From a virus, in the IMG/VR virus record IMGVR_UViG_3300032397_000093, positions 1 to 22,203 of that record: a DNA stretch of 22,203 bases. One strand, written 5' to 3'. Below are positions 1 through 22,118 of the stretch, piece after piece. Each line of letters opens with the position of its first letter. Positions within the stretch are counted from its first letter, which is position 1. The notes beneath the pieces are model-generated. The model saw nothing but the letters and a program-made list of their open reading frames with translations. It ran no database searches and was not told where the DNA came from. The position numbers and the translations under genes are program-made.

Positions 1-249
1 GCGCGGGCGATCCCGCGCTACCGGCATTATCCCTACCGCTCGCCGGAGCAGATGCGGCGCTGCCTGCGCGAGAAGGTGCAGGAGCGGTACTGGCAGCCGG
101 ATCACGCCTGGCTGGCGGAGAGCGACGGATTTGTGGACTGCCTGCCGCCGCCGAAGAACTCGCCGCTGGCGCAGTGGGATAGGGTAGCAAAGTACGATGG
201 CGACCTGCCGGAAGCCGAGCAATTCCTTCCGGGGTGGTGGAGAGGATGA
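1..249 (+). CDS. C-terminal fragment, probable large terminase subunit
   Basis: An open frame runs in from the left edge and stops at 247-249, leaving 82 residues ending in PGWWRG. The fragment is basic and rich in aromatic residues, and no catalytic motif lies in this part. I do not recognise it by sequence. The call rests on position: in lambda-type phages the large terminase ends just before the gpW connector and the portal, which follow here. The ATPase and nuclease domains would lie outside the window. The first 18 bases form an inverted repeat (arms 1-7 and 12-18), so the extreme left may include a short palindromic element. Another late gene is possible. Confidence 0.45.
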   Translation, partial: ARAIPRYRHYPYRSPEQMRRCLREKVQERYWQPDHAWLAESDGFVDCLPPPKNSPLAQWDRVAKYDGDLPEAEQFLPGWWRG

Positions 250-4137: not shown

Positions 4138-4158
4138 AGGTGTGCGCGGCGCACCGCT
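4138..4158 (+). repeat. GGTGCGC palindrome, copy 1
   Basis: GGTGTGC (4139-4145), GCG, GCGCACC (4149-4155) form a 7-bp hairpin with one G-T pair, flanked by A and GCT. It belongs to a family of four copies (4138, 9200, 14360, 15841). It lies just after a stop codon and before a 9-bp tandem tract. Confidence 0.75.
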
Positions 4159-4181
4159 CGGACCGATCCGACCGATCTGAC
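4156..4181 (+). repeat. 9-bp tandem tract 3
   Basis: Three units (GCTCGGAC, CGATCCGAC, CGATCTGAC) lie between the palindrome and the second copy of the 53-bp leader. This is the same order of tract and leader as in the gap before. Confidence 0.75.
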
Positions 4182-4231
4182 GAAAAGGCAAAAGGCAATT
4201 TACTTGGAGGCAGGACGGACATGGCGACGAA
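4179..4231 (+). repeat. 53-bp leader direct repeat, copy 2
   Basis: This is an exact copy of 3600-3652, carrying the ribosome site GGAGG (4206-4210) and the first codons of the major capsid gene. The two copies are 579 bp apart. Homologous recombination between them would delete the decoration gene, so their keeping suggests recent duplication or selection. Confidence 0.95.
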
Positions 4232-5467: not shown

Positions 5468-5497
5468 CCCCTGGTCCTGCGGTGGCAGGGCCAGGGG
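5468..5497 (+). other. 13-bp hairpin after the capsid gene
   Basis: Arms 5468-5480 and 5485-5497 pair over 13 positions with one T-G pair and a 4-base loop (GGTG). No T-run follows, so it is more likely an mRNA-end stabiliser or a partial barrier than a full terminator. It would help keep capsid mRNA abundant relative to downstream genes. Confidence 0.7.
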
Positions 5498-5512
5498 AAC
5501 AGGTTGGATTGG

Positions 5513-5543
5513 AAGGATCGGACAAATCCGACCGATCAGACAG
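5513..5543 (+). repeat. 9-bp tandem tract 4
   Basis: About three units (AAGGATCGG, ACAAATCCG, ACCGATCAG) lie between the capsid hairpin and the next ribosome site. Confidence 0.65.
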
Positions 5544-5556
5544 GCCGGGAGGGCCG

Positions 5557-14168: not shown

Positions 14169-14330
14169 GTGATCATTGTCGTGGATTCAAATGGAGTCGT
14201 TTATGAGGCCGAGAACCTCGTCCCGGGTGCCGGCGAAGTGTTCACTGACGACGATGGCCTCCTGGACCTGTCCGCATACAGCACGACGGACTACGGAGAC
14301 GGCGTCACCCTGTGGGGCGGACTCCTGTGA
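14169..14330 (+). CDS. Small 53-residue protein sharing a module with the fibre-like protein
   Basis: A GTG at 14169 is preceded by AGGAGA (14158-14163) with good spacing and opens a 53-codon frame ending at TGA 14328-14330. The product starts (M)IIVVDSNGVVYEAENLV and ends VTLWGGLL. It is clearly related to residues about 216-265 of the protein encoded downstream at 14396: by my ungapped count, 26 of 50 positions are identical, with shared phrases VVDS.G.VY and TT..GD.V.L. The module therefore occurs both alone and inside the larger protein. It may be a small assembly or attachment domain of the tail tip. The homology makes this a real gene despite its size. Confidence 0.7.
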   Translation: MIIVVDSNGVVYEAENLVPGAGEVFTDDDGLLDLSAYSTTDYGDGVTLWGGLL

Positions 14331-14395: not shown

Positions 14396-15823
14396 ATGTT
14401 CATTGATGAGTTCAATTATAACTTCGGCGTCACGCTGGACACGACCGGCGCGTGGAGCGCCAGCGGAGCGGCTTGGACGGCGGATGGCGCAGGCGGCGTC
14501 ACTCCGGCAGCATATTTTGGCGAAAAGCTCGGCGGCAACATCGCCATTTACGGGCGGTCATGCCGCCACCACAATCAGACAGTCCTCATCCGATTTCGCA
14601 CGCCCACCTTTTACTACGAAGCGGGATGTGTGCTGCGCGCAGAAGCGGGAAGAGCGGCTTATTATTTCGCGATGCTCTGCTATTACGGAGAGGGAGCAGA
14701 CCCCTCATTTTTGCAGATCTGTAAATCGGTGGGTGGGGTACGTTCCTGCCTAGCAACCGTCCCGGCCCCCGAGGTGGGGGCGGGCGAGGAATGGGATCTG
14801 GAATTTTCCATCTCAGGCGTCAATCTGGCCGCGCGGTGGAAACGGGCCGCCGATTCCTGGGATGATGGATTCGGCCCTGTCAACATCCACGACAGCGATA
14901 TTGGGGATTACGTGCTGGTCGGGGTTGACCTGGAGCCCTGCTTCTACGGTGGGATTTATGGGCAGTGCCGTGATTACCTCCATTTTAACGATCCGACCAT
15001 TTTGCGGTTTGAACAAACCTGGTCGGATGCGGCGTTTCTGGTCGTGGATTCCAGCGGAACGGTGTATTCGGCTGACGCCATTGACTCCGGCCCGGGCGAA
15101 TACTTCCGGGATGTGTATGGCGCCCTCGACGCCTCCAGCTACGCCACTACCCATCTGGGCGATTCAGTCATGCTGATCGGAGCGCTGGGCTCCGTGACGA
15201 CGCTGACAAGCACCACCACGACGACCAGCACGACTACGGCAACGACCTCCACAACCACGACTTCAACCACCACCACGTCAACCACTTCAACGACCTCAAC
15301 AACCTCAACAACCTCGACCACCACAACGTCCACGACGTCCACCACGTCAACGACTTCAACCACCAGCACGACGAGCACCACCTCGACCACCAGCACCACG
15401 TCAACGACGACGACCACAACGACGACGACCACAACGACGACGACCACAACGACGACAACCACGACGACTACCACTACAACGACGACCACCACAACAACGA
15501 CGACCACCACAACAACGACGACCACCACAACAACGACAACGACTACCACTACAACGACGACCACCAGCACCACCAGCACAACGACGGCGGGCGACGGCCC
15601 GCCCATTGAACCCACCAAGTGGTATTGCGTGGAAATGGCCACATGGTCCAACCTGACCTGCACCGACCCCCGCGAATCCACTCTCTACAATTGCACACCG
15701 GGCTCCGCGATACCTGCCTGGAAAACTTGTACGATCATCTCTTCGGTCAGGTCGAGAAAATGGATTTGGAAAAAGGGGCCATTCAACTCTTCAATACTCT
15801 GCGCAACCGCAGGGTGCCCATAG
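14396..15823 (+). CDS. Fibre-like protein: lectin-like head, Thr/Ser mucin-like tract, Cys-rich end
   Basis: The ATG at 14396 gives 475 residues. Earlier in-frame starts (back to GTG 14312) would translate the palindrome and are rejected, although the ribosome site at 14396 is weak. Residues about 3-205 are beta-rich and resemble a LamG/concanavalin-like fold (FNYNFGVTLDTTGAWSASG, later EWDLEFSISGVNLAARW and NDPTILRF). Residues 216-265 repeat the 53-residue module of the gene before. Residues about 268-398 are almost only Thr with scattered Ser. The end (residues about 400-475) has about seven Cys (WYCVEMATWSNLTC, later CATAGCP), suggesting disulphides. It is probably a receptor-binding or adhesive virion protein with a stiff, possibly glycosylated, stalk. 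Confidence 0.7.
   Translation: MFIDEFNYNFGVTLDTTGAWSASGAAWTADGAGGVTPAAYFGEKLGGNIAIYGRSCRHHNQTVLIRFRTPTFYYEAGCVLRAEAGRAAYYFAMLCYYGEGADPSFLQICKSVGGVRSCLATVPAPEVGAGEEWDLEFSISGVNLAARWKRAADSWDDGFGPVNIHDSDIGDYVLVGVDLEPCFYGGIYGQCRDYLHFNDPTILRFEQTWSDAAFLVVDSSGTVYSADAIDSGPGEYFRDVYGALDASSYATTHLGDSVMLIGALGSVTTLTSTTTTTSTTTATTSTTTTSTTTTSTTSTTSTTSTTSTTTTSTTSTTSTTSTTSTTSTTSTTSTTSTTTTTTTTTTTTTTTTTTTTTTTTTTTTTTTTTTTTTTTTTTTTTTTTTTTTTTSTTSTTTAGDGPPIEPTKWYCVEMATWSNLTCTDPRESTLYNCTPGSAIPAWKTCTIISSVRSRKWIWKKGPFNSSILCATAGCP
15199..15591 (+). repeat. ACN codon minisatellite encoding the Thr/Ser tract
   Basis: This is a low-complexity run of ACC, ACG, ACA and ACT codons with a few AGC/TCA/TCC codons. Higher-order repeats are visible: a 15-base period (ACGACGACCACAACG, three times near 15403-15455) and an 18-base period (ACGACCACCACAACAACG, near 15480-15535). 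All periods are multiples of three, so length can change by slippage without breaking the frame. Confidence 0.92.
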
Positions 15824-15840
15824 TGGCGCACAAGCGCCTG

Positions 15841-15861
15841 AGCGGTGCGCAGTGCGCACCT
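15841..15861 (-). repeat. GGTGCGC palindrome, copy 4 (inverted)
   Basis: GGTGCGC (15844-15850), AGT, GCGCACC (15854-15860) form a perfect 7-bp hairpin. The flanks (GCT and A) show that it is the reverse orientation of copies 1-3. It lies in the gap between the convergent fibre-like and moron genes. Confidence 0.85.
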
Positions 15862-15915
15862 GTCAGGTCGCGGTACTGCGACAGGGATAAAGCGATGGTG
15901 ACAGGGACAGAAATG

Positions 15916-16419
15916 TCAGGGCTTAAGCAACGATTCCCAGGGAACGTATTGGATAACGAACACGGGGGATTTCCCGTTGTTCGCCAGCGGGTGAGTAGTA
16001 GAGCTGGTGATATTATAAAGTCCAATGAGATGAAGAGAATGCATTTGACCGGCAGGCAGATTCTGAAGCCAGAGGAATTTGCCGTCCCATTTGACAAGCG
16101 CAGACGTGTCGTCAAACTCCTTGACGGCTGCGAAAGGGGAGCATGTTATGGAAACGATTTTGCCTTCTGCGTTCCTGCCGACAATCGAGGGGAACATCCC
16201 CACATTCCCGACCTTCAGCGTCGCCGCGTCAATGCGGATCGTCGCCTCAAGCGTAAGGCGCTTTTCAGGGTCGCCCGCGGCCTCCTCGTTGGCGTAGTAC
16301 TCCTTCACGAATGTCCGCAGCTTGGCGCTCTGCGCCTCAGTGAGAGGGACAACTGGAGTGCCAGCCAGGAGCTTCGCGGTGAGAACCAGCGATATCAGAA
16401 CCGTCAGGGCAAGTTTCAT
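15916..16419 (-). CDS. Secreted protein of unknown function, moron on the opposite strand
   Basis: This 167-residue protein runs against its neighbours. It has a clean Sec signal peptide (MKLALTVLISLVLTAKLLAG), so the mature part is exported. The mature protein is mixed alpha/beta: LTEAQSAKLRTFVKEYYANE, then LEATIRIDAATLKVGNVGM and a C-terminal part ending VIQYVPWESLLKP. I recognise no family. AAGGGAGG precedes the ATG, and a good promoter lies 52 bases further upstream (16471-16499). Own promoter, opposite strand and less G/C-biased codons fit a moron: a gene expressed from the prophage, often changing the host surface or blocking other phages. The right-hand neighbours continue the + strand operon. 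Confidence 0.75.
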   Translation of the reverse strand: MKLALTVLISLVLTAKLLAGTPVVPLTEAQSAKLRTFVKEYYANEEAAGDPEKRLTLEATIRIDAATLKVGNVGMFPSIVGRNAEGKIVSITCSPFAAVKEFDDTSALVKWDGKFLWLQNLPAGQMHSLHLIGLYNITSSTTHPLANNGKSPVFVIQYVPWESLLKP

Positions 16420-16470
16420 AACAGCCTCCCTTCTGAGGATTCGTGGGCTGAAGCCCGCGCTACACTAAAT

Positions 16471-16499
16471 AGTATGAGGCCCTGGCGGGCCGCTGTCAA
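16471..16499 (-). promoter_or_regulatory. Sigma-70-type promoter for the moron
   Basis: On the - strand TTGACA (16499-16494) is followed by 17 bases and CATACT (16476-16471, 4 of 6 matches). It points to the secreted protein gene. The -35 box overlaps the ribosome site AAGGAG (16498-16503) of the gene on the other strand. A GGGCT/AGCCC palindrome (16445-16456) lies in the leader. Confidence 0.6.
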
Positions 16500-16510
16500 G
16501 GAGAAATGCG

Positions 16511-16948
16511 ATGCCGCTTGACTGCCCGCACGGCGGGCCGTGGATGGATGAGGAGCGCCGCCCGTTCGGCGGTGTGCTTGGTCGAACCGCGCAGGGTGGG
16601 CCTGTGGGCCGAGAGAGGGGCGCGCAAGCGCTCCCGATGCGCACCTGCGCCTTAATCAAGGGCGGGTGCGCGACGTGTGGACCAGCATATATCCACTATG
16701 ACTCCTGCAAGGATTGCTCAGGCAGGGATGATGGAACTTCCGTAGCGTCTTGGACCTTGAATGACCAAATGGCAACACTCTTTATAGGTAATCCCCTGCT
16801 GGAAAACCTTGAACCGCTGGTGAAGCGTTCCAGAACCGACGCGGAGGATGCGCTGGTAAGGGCCGTAAGGATCGGATGCCTGACCACAATGCAGGCCAAA
16901 ACGCTGGCGGCCGCCCTGAGTGCCGCCGAACGGGCGGAGGCGATATGA
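16511..16948 (+). CDS. Small Cys-rich (zinc-binding) protein before the glycosyltransferase
   Basis: This 145-residue protein starts at ATG 16511, 7 bases after AAGGAG. Its first half carries Cys5, 46, 53, 56, 66 and 69, with CATCGP and CKDCSG as a likely zinc site. The second half is helical (LENLEPLVKRSRTDAEDALV, then TMQAKTLAAALSAAERAEA). It ends in ATGA overlapping the glycosyltransferase start, so the two are made together. The function is not recognised. An adaptor for the glycosylation genes is possible, but only position suggests it. The N-terminal 40 residues are low in recognisable structure, so a later start is conceivable. Confidence 0.6.
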   Translation: MPLDCPHGGPWMDEERRPFGGVLGRTAQGGPVGRERGAQALPMRTCALIKGGCATCGPAYIHYDSCKDCSGRDDGTSVASWTLNDQMATLFIGNPLLENLEPLVKRSRTDAEDALVRAVRIGCLTTMQAKTLAAALSAAERAEAI

Positions 16949-18006
16949 CCGTTATTGACGACAGAATAGACCAGGCGGCTGCGGAGCTGGAGGAGAAAGG
17001 CCCCCCGATCTGCCTGCCGTGCGAACAGGCCGCGGCGCACATGGCCTCGCTGAAAAACGCGCCGGGGATCACCAACGTCCGGCTGCGTCCTCTTGATGTC
17101 TCCATCGTCATCACCGCACTCAACGAGCATGAGTGGCTGCCCCGGACGCTGGCCAGCATCAGGGAAACGGCCCCGGAGGCTGAGATCATCGTCGTTGACG
17201 ACTGCTCCGATCCCCCGCTGGGGACCCTCCGTAGCTCTCTGCCGCCGAAGGCTAAGGAGAGCGAAGGAGGGCCGATCCGCCTTTTCCGCAACGAGCGACG
17301 CCTCGGCATGGCGCGCAGCCGGCACATCGGCTGCCGCCTCGCCACGCATCCGCGCATCATCCTGGCCGATGCGCATGAGCTGTTCAAGGCCGGGGACATT
17401 GCCACGATGTCCCAGGCGATTGAGCTGCTTGGCGGGTTCATCTACGCGACGCCGAACGACTACCCGCCGGTCGAACTGCGCGACTACGAAGGGCTGTACC
17501 GCAACAAGTGGATGGGCTTCCGCCCCCACGGCGACAAGGCTATGCCGGAGACGGGCATAATGGGGGGCCTCTATGGCTTCCGGCGCGAGCTGATTGACCG
17601 GATCGGCGGCTGGCCGGCGCTGCCCGGGCACACGTACTGGGAGGAGGCGTTCTGGGCGATCTACTGCCGCAAGGCCGGGGTGCCGATCCACTGGCTGCCG
17701 ACGGTGAACCATTGGCACCTGTTCCGCACGTCAATCGAGGCTGAGGCGACCGAGTCGTTCCCCATGACGCCATACCGCACCGACGACGACATGTACCTGG
17801 TGAACCTCGCGGCGATTTACCGCCTGCTGCACGACGACGCGGACTGGGCGAAGTGGCGTGCGAAACTGCTGGCTGGCGTGACGTTCGACAAGGGCACGCT
17901 GCAGGAGCAGACCTACCAGGTCCCCGAACACGTGCTGCAGATGGTCGAAACGCCGGAGATGGAGGAGTACGGGGAGAAAATCAGAGCAACGTTTCGGACA
18001 AGATGA
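16945..18006 (+). CDS. GT-A glycosyltransferase with polypeptide GalNAc-transferase-like motifs
   Basis: The ATG at 16945 (ATGA overlap) gives 353 residues; the earlier in-frame start at 16876 lies within the upstream gene. The N-terminal nucleotide-binding half has VSIVITALNEHEWLPRTLAS and AEIIVVDDCSD. Instead of DxD it has ADAHELF: Asp142-x-His144. Further on come GIMGGLYGFRRELIDRIGGW (to about residue 222), YWEEAFW (231-237) and VNHWHLFR with His258. In animal polypeptide GalNAc-transferases (GT27) the metal is held by DxH and a distant His in GHVFR, and GGLF and WGGEN motifs lie between in the same order. The similarity is by eye. No lectin domain is present. The likely job is adding sugar to a Ser/Thr-rich protein. 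A general GT2 enzyme is the alternative. Confidence 0.8.
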   Translation: MTVIDDRIDQAAAELEEKGPPICLPCEQAAAHMASLKNAPGITNVRLRPLDVSIVITALNEHEWLPRTLASIRETAPEAEIIVVDDCSDPPLGTLRSSLPPKAKESEGGPIRLFRNERRLGMARSRHIGCRLATHPRIILADAHELFKAGDIATMSQAIELLGGFIYATPNDYPPVELRDYEGLYRNKWMGFRPHGDKAMPETGIMGGLYGFRRELIDRIGGWPALPGHTYWEEAFWAIYCRKAGVPIHWLPTVNHWHLFRTSIEAEATESFPMTPYRTDDDMYLVNLAAIYRLLHDDADWAKWRAKLLAGVTFDKGTLQEQTYQVPEHVLQMVETPEMEEYGEKIRATFRTR

Positions 18007-18080
18007 ACCAGATTACATAGATATCTTTGTTATCTCGTTATCTTGTCAAAGTAGTTTTCATAAACCGGGAGGAGGAAGAG

Positions 18081-20555
18081 ATGAAGGTATGCCTGCTGTT
18101 GACGAGCTGCAACCGCGCGGCGGAAATCGTGGAGGCGACGCGCGCGAATTTGGAGGTGCTGGGATCCGCTGCGCTCCCGGTCATCATTGCCGACTGCTCG
18201 ACGCCCGGCCTGAACTACACTCAGGTTCACGCCCAGCCGAACGCCGGAGGCATCAACTCATGGATTCCCCCGGAGTCGTTCGACACGGATTATCACAAGC
18301 TGGAGGCGTTGAACCCCGTCGCGCTCCTCCACGTGGACTGGATTCAGAAGCAGGCGGGTGACATGGCGCTGACGAACCTGGGCTTGCAGGAGGCGCGCCG
18401 CCTGGGGTTCGAGGTGGTGATCAAACTGAGCGGATCGCACCGGATCAAGAAGAACGTCCTCCCGATAGCGCAGGAGACGCGGGGGATCCGCACGAAGGTA
18501 TTCCACGACCGCAAGTACGCCGAGAGCGGCCTATTCATCATCCACGACAGCGCGTTCGATCTGTTCGCCAACCCCGACATGGCAGTGGTGCGCGGCCCGG
18601 ACCTGCTGTACGCCGAGAGCCGCCTCTACCGCTTCGGCAACGCCGCGCTGGAGGACTGGCCGGACTTCCTGGACTATTACAACTACCGCGCCGCGCGGGC
18701 CTGGGACTGGTCCTGCGTGGCGGATCAACTTCCCACCGTTCTGCACCTGCTGGAGCACATCATCGGCGGCGACATGCGCGGCGACGTGCTGTGGCTGGCG
18801 GAGCAGTTGAAGGCCGCAAATCCTCGCAACGTGCTGGAACTGGGCGTCAGGGACGGCGTCTCCACCCTCGCGTTTCTGGTCGCGCTGAAAGAGAGCGCCA
18901 ATCCCGCGCCGATGGACAGCGTGGACATCGTGGAGAATCCCGAATGCACCCGGCGGATCCAGACGCTGGGGCTGGCCGGGAACTGGACGTTCATCAAAGA
19001 GGATGACCGGGAGTTCCGGAAAGGGTGCAGGGCGGGGATTGACTTCATCTTCCTGGACACCAGCCACGAGTACAAGCACACGGTTTGGGAGCTGGAGAAC
19101 TACTGCCCGCTGCTGTCGGAACATGGGCGGATGATATGCCACGACGTGAAGAGCCATCCGGCCGTGCGCCAGGCGCTGGATGAGTTCGCCGCGGCGCACC
19201 CGGAGTTCGACGTGAACTATCGGCTGGACCCGTCGCAATGCGGAATGGGGATCGTGACGCGCAAGGCGAGGACTGTCACCACCACAGAGGATACAAAAAT
19301 GCAGAACGCAGAGTGCAGAGCGCAGAGCGCAGAAGTAAAGGACCTGAAACGGCCATTGGTCAGTTGCCTGACGGCTACCGCCGGGCGCTTCAGCGTGCTG
19401 CGCGAGGCGCTGGGGTGCTTCCTGGCGCAGGACTATGAGCCGCGCGAGATGATCATACTCAACAACCACCCGACGCCGATTGTTCCAGAGGGAAACCCTC
19501 CGAAATGGACGGACGGTTCCTATCAGGTGGAGCTTGGAGGGGCTGGCGTGCTGCTGCGAATATACAACGAGCCGAAGTACGCCACGCTGGGCGACTGCCG
19601 CAACCGGCTGCTCGAGCTGGCGCGCGGCGAGTACGTCCGGACATGGGACGATGACGACCTGTATCTCCCCTGGGCGATCAGCCAGGGAGTGGAGATAATC
19701 AAGACAGCCCACGCTCACGGCAATTTCAATACGGCCGCCAAGCCGTCGCGTAGCTGGGCGTGGCGCGTGGACAAGGACGAATGGAGCCTCGATGACAACG
19801 TGTTCGAGGCGGCGATGACTGTCGAGACATTTGTGGCTCGGAGGTATGGTTACAAACCCGGCGGCGGGGATGAACATTTCCCGCTGCTTGACGGTATCCA
19901 GAGGGAGGGGGGATGTAGACTCGTAGATGTAGGCTGGCGCGCCTCCTACGTCTATCGCTGGGGAACGAATCTTCAGCGGATCTCCGGCACGCTGGGGCTA
20001 AAGGACGCAGAGGGCAAAGAGCGCACCCTTGCTGATCGCACGGCGGAATGGGTGGAGAAGAATCAGGACGACGGCGCTGGGCAGGTGCTCACTCCCGCTG
20101 ACATTCGGCCCTATATCCTTGCCTTCGCGCGCGCGTCTGCCGAGAAGTTCCCCGAGAACAAGGCTGAGATCTTCAGGATGCCCGGCATCCCGGCGGAAAT
20201 CAGGACTCCCCCGGAGGAGTTGCGCATTCCGGGCATGGCCGAGCCCGCCAAGCTGGTGTCGCCTGGTGAAAATAGGTCCAATCCGTCCACTCAGTCCAAG
20301 CCATCCACGGACGTCGTTGTCATCGCCGACTGCTGCGGCGTCACCGGCTCGTATCTGTATGTTCGCGTGAAGGGCCAATGGCACCATCTCTCGTGGGTGC
20401 ATTGTGATCAGAAGAAGGGCGCGATCCACGTCAGCAGCGACCCGGCGAAAGCTTGCCACAACTGCGGACACCTGTTCAGCGGCGAGACCCCCGCGCGTCG
20501 CTACCATCCCGGCGCGCAGAAGTGGATGGATAAACACATAAAGGCGCTGCCATGA
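18081..20555 (+). CDS. Fused glycosyltransferase - methyltransferase - glycosyltransferase with zinc-ribbon end
   Basis: ATG 18081 follows GGGAGGAGGAAGAG and gives 824 residues; an earlier start at 18027 is rejected. Residues 1-225 resemble a sugar transferase fold (VCLLLTSCNRAAEIV; VVIKLSGSHRIKKN). Residues 240-400 are a class I SAM methyltransferase: VLELGVRDGVS (251-261), DFIFLDTSHEY (Asp326) and a closing HDVKSHPAVRQALDEF, as in the Methyltransf_24 type. Residues 425-650 are a GT2 domain: LVSCLTATAGRFSVLREAL and TWDDDD (521-526). The C-terminus has Cys751/752, Cys775, Cys792 and Cys795 (CHNC), a likely zinc ribbon. Two linkers are repeat-derived (407-418 and about 732-744). It may build or methylate a glycan started by the enzyme before it. 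Confidence 0.8.
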   Translation: MKVCLLLTSCNRAAEIVEATRANLEVLGSAALPVIIADCSTPGLNYTQVHAQPNAGGINSWIPPESFDTDYHKLEALNPVALLHVDWIQKQAGDMALTNLGLQEARRLGFEVVIKLSGSHRIKKNVLPIAQETRGIRTKVFHDRKYAESGLFIIHDSAFDLFANPDMAVVRGPDLLYAESRLYRFGNAALEDWPDFLDYYNYRAARAWDWSCVADQLPTVLHLLEHIIGGDMRGDVLWLAEQLKAANPRNVLELGVRDGVSTLAFLVALKESANPAPMDSVDIVENPECTRRIQTLGLAGNWTFIKEDDREFRKGCRAGIDFIFLDTSHEYKHTVWELENYCPLLSEHGRMICHDVKSHPAVRQALDEFAAAHPEFDVNYRLDPSQCGMGIVTRKARTVTTTEDTKMQNAECRAQSAEVKDLKRPLVSCLTATAGRFSVLREALGCFLAQDYEPREMIILNNHPTPIVPEGNPPKWTDGSYQVELGGAGVLLRIYNEPKYATLGDCRNRLLELARGEYVRTWDDDDLYLPWAISQGVEIIKTAHAHGNFNTAAKPSRSWAWRVDKDEWSLDDNVFEAAMTVETFVARRYGYKPGGGDEHFPLLDGIQREGGCRLVDVGWRASYVYRWGTNLQRISGTLGLKDAEGKERTLADRTAEWVEKNQDDGAGQVLTPADIRPYILAFARASAEKFPENKAEIFRMPGIPAEIRTPPEELRIPGMAEPAKLVSPGENRSNPSTQSKPSTDVVVIADCCGVTGSYLYVRVKGQWHHLSWVHCDQKKGAIHVSSDPAKACHNCGHLFSGETPARRYHPGAQKWMDKHIKALP
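19299..19336 (+). repeat. In-frame GCAGAG-type repeat in the fusion gene
   Basis: Degenerate 7-8-base units (GCAGAAC, GCAGAGT, GCAGAGC) are translated as QNAECRAQSAE between the methyltransferase and the second glycosyltransferase domain. This is the kind of repeat usually found in gaps, here used as a linker. Confidence 0.7.
20274..20310 (+). repeat. In-frame 9-bp repeat in the fusion gene
   Basis: Units of the type GTCCAATCC, GTCCACTCA, GTCCAAGCC recur at 9-base steps and are translated as SNPSTQSKPST, joining the second glycosyltransferase part to the zinc-ribbon end. Confidence 0.7.
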
Positions 20556-20734
20556 GCGAACAGCACGTCGTTATTCTTCCACCCTGCGCCGAACGCGGAG
20601 AGTGGCAGGATCGTCACGGCGGGACGGTTGGCGTTTGTGCGCCATGCCGCAAGCACAAGCGCTACATGACCCCCAGCGAATGCCGAGTCTGCCTCGCAGA
20701 GAGGCTGCACGTGGCGCCTCTAGCAGCAGGCTGA
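20552..20734 (+). CDS. Small zinc-finger-like protein
   Basis: This 60-residue protein starts on the stop of the fusion gene (ATGA) and closes the + strand operon. It has Cys12 and two CxxC pairs, CAPC (29-32) and CRVC (44-47), spaced by a basic stretch (RKHKRYMTPSE), a compact zinc-binding arrangement. I do not recognise a family. Translational coupling to the fusion gene, itself ending in a zinc ribbon, suggests a shared task. Three Cys-rich proteins or domains thus occur among these glycosylation genes. It may instead be a small regulator. Confidence 0.6.
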   Translation: MSEQHVVILPPCAERGEWQDRHGGTVGVCAPCRKHKRYMTPSECRVCLAERLHVAPLAAG

Positions 20735-21766: not shown

Positions 21767-21790
21767 TTATGATAGGCGCGCCTATCATAA
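21767..21790. promoter_or_regulatory. 24-bp perfect palindrome, possible operator
   Basis: Half-sites TTATGATAGGCG and CGCCTATCATAA meet with no spacer. It lies about 44 bases upstream of the leftward start at 21723. TATGAT within it resembles a -10 box on both strands, but no matching -35 was found. A dimeric repressor site is a fair guess. Confidence 0.5.
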
Positions 21791-21818
21791 CCTGCGATTA
21801 TGGGAAAATACTTTGCAG

Positions 21819-21982
21819 TCCGGCGCGCTGGAACGCCACCATTCCGGCGCGCTGATCTCCTCCGGCGCGCGATCTCCTCCGGCGCGCTGATCTCCTCCGG
21901 CGCGCTGATCCTCCGGCGCGCGATCCTCCGGCGCGCGATCCTCCGGCGCGCGATCCTCCGGCGCGCTGATCCTCCGGCGCGC
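21819..21982 (+). repeat. Array of ten TCCGGCGCGC iterons
   Basis: Exact copies start at 21819, 21843, 21861, 21878, 21896, 21912, 21927, 21942, 21957 and 21973. The spacing falls from 24 to 15-18 bases. Most are followed by TGATC or GATC and then TCC. Such arrays are typical of replication initiator or repressor sites. No gene is seen here. Confidence 0.85.
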
Positions 21983-21994
21983 GCTTAAAAAGAA

Positions 21995-22118
21995 AATGGC
22001 CATAGGATGATAGGACCGTCCTATGGCCATTGAAACTCTAGCGCTGATCAGGCGCTAGAGTACGCCGAATTATGGCGCCGTCCTATGGCGCCTTGCGGCG
22101 CGCGCTGATCAGGCGCGC
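21995..22118. repeat. Cluster of hairpins sharing GCGCTGATC
   Basis: AATGGCCATAGGA/TCCTATGGCCATT is at 21995-22007 and 22019-22031. ACTCTAGCGC/GCGCTAGAGT is at 22035-22044 and 22052-22061, around TGATCAG. TATGGCGCC occurs twice, at 22071 and 22084. GCGCGC/GCGCGC is at 22100-22105 and 22113-22118, again around TGATCAG. The core GCGCTGATC also occurs in several iterons to the left. From 21724 to the window end I see no convincing gene. Confidence 0.8.

Follow-up and report, generated by a model that had tools for sequence, protein, structure and literature searches.

A threonine/serine-rich stalk gene and a GT27-like glycosyltransferase in a virus genome fragment: a candidate O-glycosylation module of phages

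The window, that is, the whole stretch of DNA analysed here, is an IMG/VR virus record of 22,203 bases, which is linear and probably a fragment. Its gene order runs from a portal protein of the lambda family (4.5e-85) through a prohead protease, a small ORF at the usual head-decoration place and a major capsid-like protein to a neck protein (PHROG 27). A long coiled tail protein and small tail ORFs come next, followed by the region that encodes a candidate stalk protein and a glycosyltransferase; names of genes without a family match were assigned by position. A related contig found via its portal and capsid genes (L002/L006) is 51% identical to the window in the portal and 56% in the capsid, and another (L005/L009, phage G004/L009) is 57% identical in the capsid. 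No relatives of the window enzyme or portal were found among 84,980 prokaryote genomes, and therefore no host was assigned to the phage.

The two ends of the record and its intergenic spaces show further features. Positions 1..249 (plus strand) were read as the C-terminal end of another glycosyltransferase-like ORF, cut by the contig start, with a PRYRHYPYRS...FLPGWW-type end as in the ORF at L002:3857-4666. In L002 (1-4666) the gene matching this ORF is preceded by a B12-type radical SAM protein, methyltransferase-like ORFs and a cyclase-like ORF, all upstream of the portal; these names were read off the translations without a family search, and the genes possibly form a second sugar or natural-product cluster. 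An SDRSDRSDKSD-like reading recurs between window genes (e.g. 233-300, 4140-4200 and 5480-5550) and has its source in a repeated short DNA motif, which looks like a dispersed intergenic repeat, perhaps one common to the phage and its host. Near the contig end, at 21785-22030, there is a short tandem repeat reading APEDRAPEDRAPED / RRAILRRAILRRA.

The candidate stalk or fibre protein (475 aa; 14396..15823, plus strand) was recognized from its ORF and translation and from its location after the tail genes; its start codon is uncertain (ATG 14396 or GTG 14312), and the protein is without a Pfam match. It is composed of an N-terminal domain, a VDSSGTVY module, a Thr/Ser tract and a short Cys-rich C-terminus, and its position and build suggest a virion fibre or stalk. 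The module just before the tract (stalk residues about 215-264) is homologous to a 53-aa ORF at 14169..14330 (plus strand): their local alignment scores 121, and none of 1000 shuffles scored above 63. The module is a second copy of that ORF, in agreement with a variable late-region accessory protein.

The first-pass annotation of this DNA had pointed to about 130 nearly pure Thr/Ser residues in the fibre, and the tract, the proposed O-glycan acceptor, comprises 128 residues (residues 271-398 of the protein; 15206..15589, plus strand), with 106 Thr, 20 Ser and 2 Ala and a longest pure Thr run of 54. All four Thr codons are present (ACG 41, ACC 38, ACA 19, ACT 8), and the third codon position is mixed (C48 G44 A28 T8) while the first and second are nearly fixed; because of this pattern, the tract looks as if it has been held as Thr/Ser by purifying selection on its residues, as opposed to fresh repeat expansion. 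The codon pattern likewise disfavours a neutral microsatellite reading. The corresponding explanation of the whole locus, which sees in the tract a selfish, expanding microsatellite and in the nearby enzyme a chance neighbour, is very improbable: the tract is made of ACN triplets and one phage (G006) has several low-complexity ORFs, as such an explanation would have it, but third positions are mixed while the residues remain Thr/Ser, the partner in the related phage L009 is Ser-based and is not an ACN repeat, and the pairing of tract and enzyme recurs in other contigs.

Stalk and enzyme are not adjacent in the window, as about 1.1 kb and an opposite-strand ORF intervene; the ORF does separate them, as the first-pass annotation had said of a moron between fibre and enzymes. 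It was identified by ORF reading (15916..16419, minus strand), and its product is a secreted-type protein of 167 aa with a signal-peptide-like start. It matches no family of Pfam, PHROG or NCBIfam at a score above cut-off, a promoter-like site on its strand (16499-16471) is no more than chance expects, and in the related contig L009 the stretch from stalk to enzyme is free of opposite-strand ORFs. This gene is probably an inserted moron and is a candidate for superinfection exclusion or lysogenic conversion. A small Cys-containing ORF, also found by ORF reading, follows at 16511..16948 (plus strand) and overlaps the enzyme start by ATGA, an arrangement that possibly couples the translation of the two. 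Cys-rich small ORFs are also present at the corresponding place in L009. Cys-rich, zinc-ribbon-like segments with C-x2-C pairs occur upstream of the DAH domain in the N-termini of the L026 and L027 enzymes, at window 16637-16720 and in the L009 small ORFs, being fused to this domain in some phages and forming separate small ORFs in others.

The enzyme (353 aa; 16945..18006, plus strand) is a GT27-like GT-A glycosyltransferase, named on the basis of Pfam, motifs, profile and fold comparison, with a Pfam Glycos_transf_2 domain (E = 2.2e-18). The four motifs listed by the first-pass annotation are each at the place given there: DAH (DxH) at residues 142-144 (17368-17376), GGLYGF at 207-212 (17563-17580), YWEEAFW at 231-237 (17635-17655) and HLFR, with the distal His258, at 258-261 (17716-17727). 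In sequence, D142, H144 and H258 align with the DAH/DSH and VGHxFR of polypeptide GalNAc-transferases, and a His at the distal place is also present in some GT2 enzymes. When the window enzyme alone was compared with the PDB, an archaeal GT2 mannosyltransferase came first (6.2e-6), followed by GalNAc-T4 (5.5e-5), T7, T9, T12 and others. A family profile was then searched against the PDB; it was made from alignment A4, which holds seven DAH phage sequences (the window enzyme and six phage relatives). Its top 15 matches were all polypeptide GalNAc-transferases (GT27; 6.5e-32 to 4e-23), with chondroitin synthase and a Toxoplasma GalNAc-transferase below them and ordinary GT2 enzymes from about 1e-13, and it aligned with the GalNAc-transferases through the DAHC, GG, WGxE and VxHxFR motifs. 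Two relatives searched singly had GalNAc-transferases as first PDB matches, and these were the sole PDB matches of the L009 enzyme (5.2e-5), whereas a DxD phage GT2 control matched other GT2 enzymes and no GalNAc-transferase.

Several further comparisons bear on the family placement. PF02709 (Glyco_transf_7C) did not match the window enzyme; among the relatives it was above cut-off in L029 and below it in two others. No ricin-type lectin domain was found by Pfam, the window enzyme ending at 353 aa, and because this domain is absent, which speaks against an animal-type enzyme, the protein is called GT27-like and is not counted as a GT27 member. A single-sequence AF2 run gave a pLDDT of 41, and that model was set aside. 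The AF2 model built from the window enzyme and five phage relatives (mean pLDDT 57, pTM 0.63) has a confident core, with most blocks of residues 51-170 at 80-90, and a weak C-terminal third. Fold comparison of this model returned GT-A enzymes throughout (Z 18-21); for GalNAc-transferases the alignments covered about 205-245 residues at about 20-24% identity, and their Z of 18-20 tied with that of other GT2 folds such as WrtF and a Leptospira GT. The predicted fold thus agrees with GT27 and, because of these tied Z scores, does not single it out. Judged by sequence, the enzyme group is nearest to the polypeptide GalNAc-transferases, while the window enzyme taken alone has a weaker likeness, tied with other GT2 enzymes. 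The DxH...His order that the first-pass annotation had ascribed to GalNAc-transferases is kept in the group; the structure search did not lead to a lipid- or polysaccharide-specific GT2 group devoid of the His-metal site. The window enzyme, the downstream fusion protein and four DAH relatives were compared by tblastn with 50,697 phage records; the L029 enzyme alone had matches (13 records), and none of the five records inspected was of the DAH type.

Downstream of the enzyme lies a gene for an 824-aa protein (18081..20555, plus strand) in which Pfam detects a Methyltransf_24 domain (about 18834-19148; E = 1.2e-15) and a C-terminal GT2 domain with DDDD (about 19377-19718; E = 9.7e-5, half a bit under the Pfam cut-off). 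It had been described as a glycosyltransferase-methyltransferase-glycosyltransferase fusion; the second and third parts hold, and the N-terminal 240 residues have no Pfam or PDB sequence match that would support the first. Methyltransf_24 is encoded by a separate gene in G006, directly after the first DAH enzyme, and is fused to a second glycosyltransferase in the window. Because of the two domains in the fusion and of this gene in G006, a methylated, extended glycan is plausible, and the 824-aa protein could plausibly extend and O-methylate it.

The association between DAH enzymes and Ser/Thr-rich proteins extends beyond the window. In L009, a Ser-rich stalk (about 545 residues of S-x repeats, then a Cys-rich end) comes first, two small Cys-rich ORFs are next, and the final ORF is a DAH glycosyltransferase that the contig end truncates (247 aa); the window has the same order of stalk, small Cys ORF and enzyme, plus the inserted moron-like ORF. 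IMG/VR was also scanned with the pattern GDxhhxxDAHx5GW, which matched six contigs, four of them with a GT2 domain; the other two (L011 and L015) did not encode glycosyltransferases and were dropped, and a tighter DAH pattern had no match in IMG/VR. H258 lies outside the scan pattern, yet it is kept in all six rows that reach its position. A Ser/Thr-rich ORF lies directly upstream on the same strand in all four GT2 contigs of the scan. Its product is of the (S-P/A/L)n type in G006, poly-Thr in G007 and poly-Thr/Ala in G008; in G010, whose contig ends 137 bases upstream of the enzyme, those bases encode the tail of a Thr-rich protein (TTTTTAATTGTTTGTLVTAPTTSASISPS...). The two genes overlap in G006 and G008 and touch in G007. 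In all, G006 (L023, 1603-20000) carries at least four Ser-rich ORFs of the (S-P/A/L)n type as well as two DAH glycosyltransferases, and a methyltransferase and additional GT-like ORFs lie between these genes.

For control, DAH was replaced by D[D/A]D in the pattern, which then matched 21 contigs, about 16 of which had enough upstream sequence to be judged; L038 (no ORF in frame), L041, L045 and L049 (no upstream flank) and L043 (an 89-aa ORF) were set aside. In none of the 21 contigs was any ORF up to three places from the glycosyltransferase Ser/Thr-rich, and 2 of 223 control ORFs were Ser/Thr-rich. Fisher's exact test gives 2e-4 for four of four DAH contigs against 0 of about 16 controls, or 1e-3 when G010 is left out; because the controls include families, these counts overstate the effective numbers. 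The DAH sample is small and partly related, in that the G007 and G008 enzymes are alike and the G010 stalk is a fragment, and adjacency comes cheaper in G006, since this phage has several Ser-rich ORFs. In total, the pairing is seen in six contigs (the window, L009, G006, G007, G008 and G010). Co-occurrence of the enzyme with Ser/Thr-rich proteins in relatives, which the first-pass annotation had proposed to survey, thus recurs in the related L009 and in unrelated phages.

This arrangement also helps in weighing two other roles for the enzyme. It might glycosylate another virion protein, such as the capsid or tail tube, as in mycobacteriophages, with the tract as a flexible, unmodified linker, and Thr-rich linkers without known modification do exist. 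Phages Che8 and Rita are reported to carry glycans on the major capsid protein (cited in PMC11256854). Such a role is nonetheless quite unlikely, given that in each of the four scan contigs the DAH enzyme comes after a Ser/Thr-rich gene, and that start and stop codons overlap or touch in three of them. Alternatively, the enzyme and the fusion protein may alter a host glycan or S-layer and so block superinfection, lying beside the stalk as variable late-region cargo. PHROGs place the enzyme among phage 'moron' glycosyltransferases, an opposite-strand moron-like ORF is also in the window, and the S-layer of a planctomycete carries O-glycans with several GalNAc and methylated sugars (PMC5088730), so that such a host target is conceivable. 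On the other hand, the DxD phage GT2 enzymes, which would be expected to share this role, are not beside Ser/Thr-rich ORFs whereas the DAH ones are, and no GtrA/GtrB-type membrane partner was noticed among the window genes; action on the host surface is thus considered unlikely.

The best reading, and a fairly probable one, is that of a phage-encoded O-glycosylation module acting on its own stalk, to which the tract, the family likeness and active-site residues of the enzyme and the recurrent neighbourhood all point. The corresponding interpretation in the first-pass annotation is supported in part. In this module, the GT27-like enzyme (16945-18006) would bind a nucleotide sugar and a metal ion via D142, H144 and H258 and would transfer a first sugar, most likely HexNAc, to Thr/Ser hydroxyls of the tract in the 14396-15823 protein; the methyltransferase-glycosyltransferase encoded downstream may then extend and O-methylate the glycan. 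On the virion, dense glycosylation would turn the tract into a stiff, hydrated spacer that resists proteases and on which the Cys-rich stalk tip is held out.

Different known systems share some of these elements. GT27 GalNAc-transferases (T1, T2, T4, T10) likewise have a GT-A domain, DxH with a distal His in an HxFR context, GG and W-x-E motifs and a Thr/Ser-rich partner; unlike them, the phage enzyme has no Golgi membrane anchor and no ricin-type lectin domain that was found, and WGGEN is replaced by YWEEAFW in the window enzyme. The (S-x)n stalk of L009 looks like the repeats of streptococcal serine-rich repeat adhesins (GspB/Fap1 type), which also have a glycosyltransferase nearby. Unlike the phage pair, these adhesins depend on GtfA/GtfB, whose fold class is different, and are secreted by a route of their own. 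In Clostridioides difficile, the gene for the glycosyltransferase SgtA adjoins that for BclA3, a surface fibre protein with Thr-containing repeats; SgtA adds O-GlcNAc to Thr and Ser, and another, unidentified activity extends the chain (PMC7157674). Unlike the phage stalk, BclA3 is a cellular spore protein, and the gene order is reversed, with sgtA upstream. Mycobacteriophages have their own structural proteins modified by phage-encoded glycosyltransferases; virion glycosylation of Che8 and Rita, which are related to the phage of PMC11256854, is credited there to Freeman et al. 2023. The reported target is the capsid, and the glycosyltransferase gp100 of Girr (same genus) has a DxD-type LFDDDC; its gene has small non-structural genes around it and no low-complexity stalk gene next to it. 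Compared with phage virion glycosylation as presented in PMC11256854 and the work cited there, the module proposed here would differ in its class of transferase and in its dedicated low-complexity acceptor. A literature search, excluding most subscription journals and all preprints, returned no description of a GT27-like enzyme paired with a phage poly-Thr/Ser protein.

A wider proposal, held tentatively and at a little short of even confidence, is that of a recurrent phage system in which a poly-Thr or (Ser-x)n low-complexity stalk and the GT27-like transferase that belongs to it, sometimes joined by a Methyltransf_24 protein, build mucin-like glycan brushes on particles. If so, mucin-type initiation chemistry would exist in bacterial viruses, apart from the animal one. 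It is easy to dismiss Thr/Ser low-complexity phage proteins as linkers or artefacts; should they instead be glycan scaffolds, each with a dedicated transferase encoded beside it, the short enzymes might serve as simple tools for O-glycoprotein production, and phages would carry mucin-like coats, which would bear on adsorption, stability and immune recognition.
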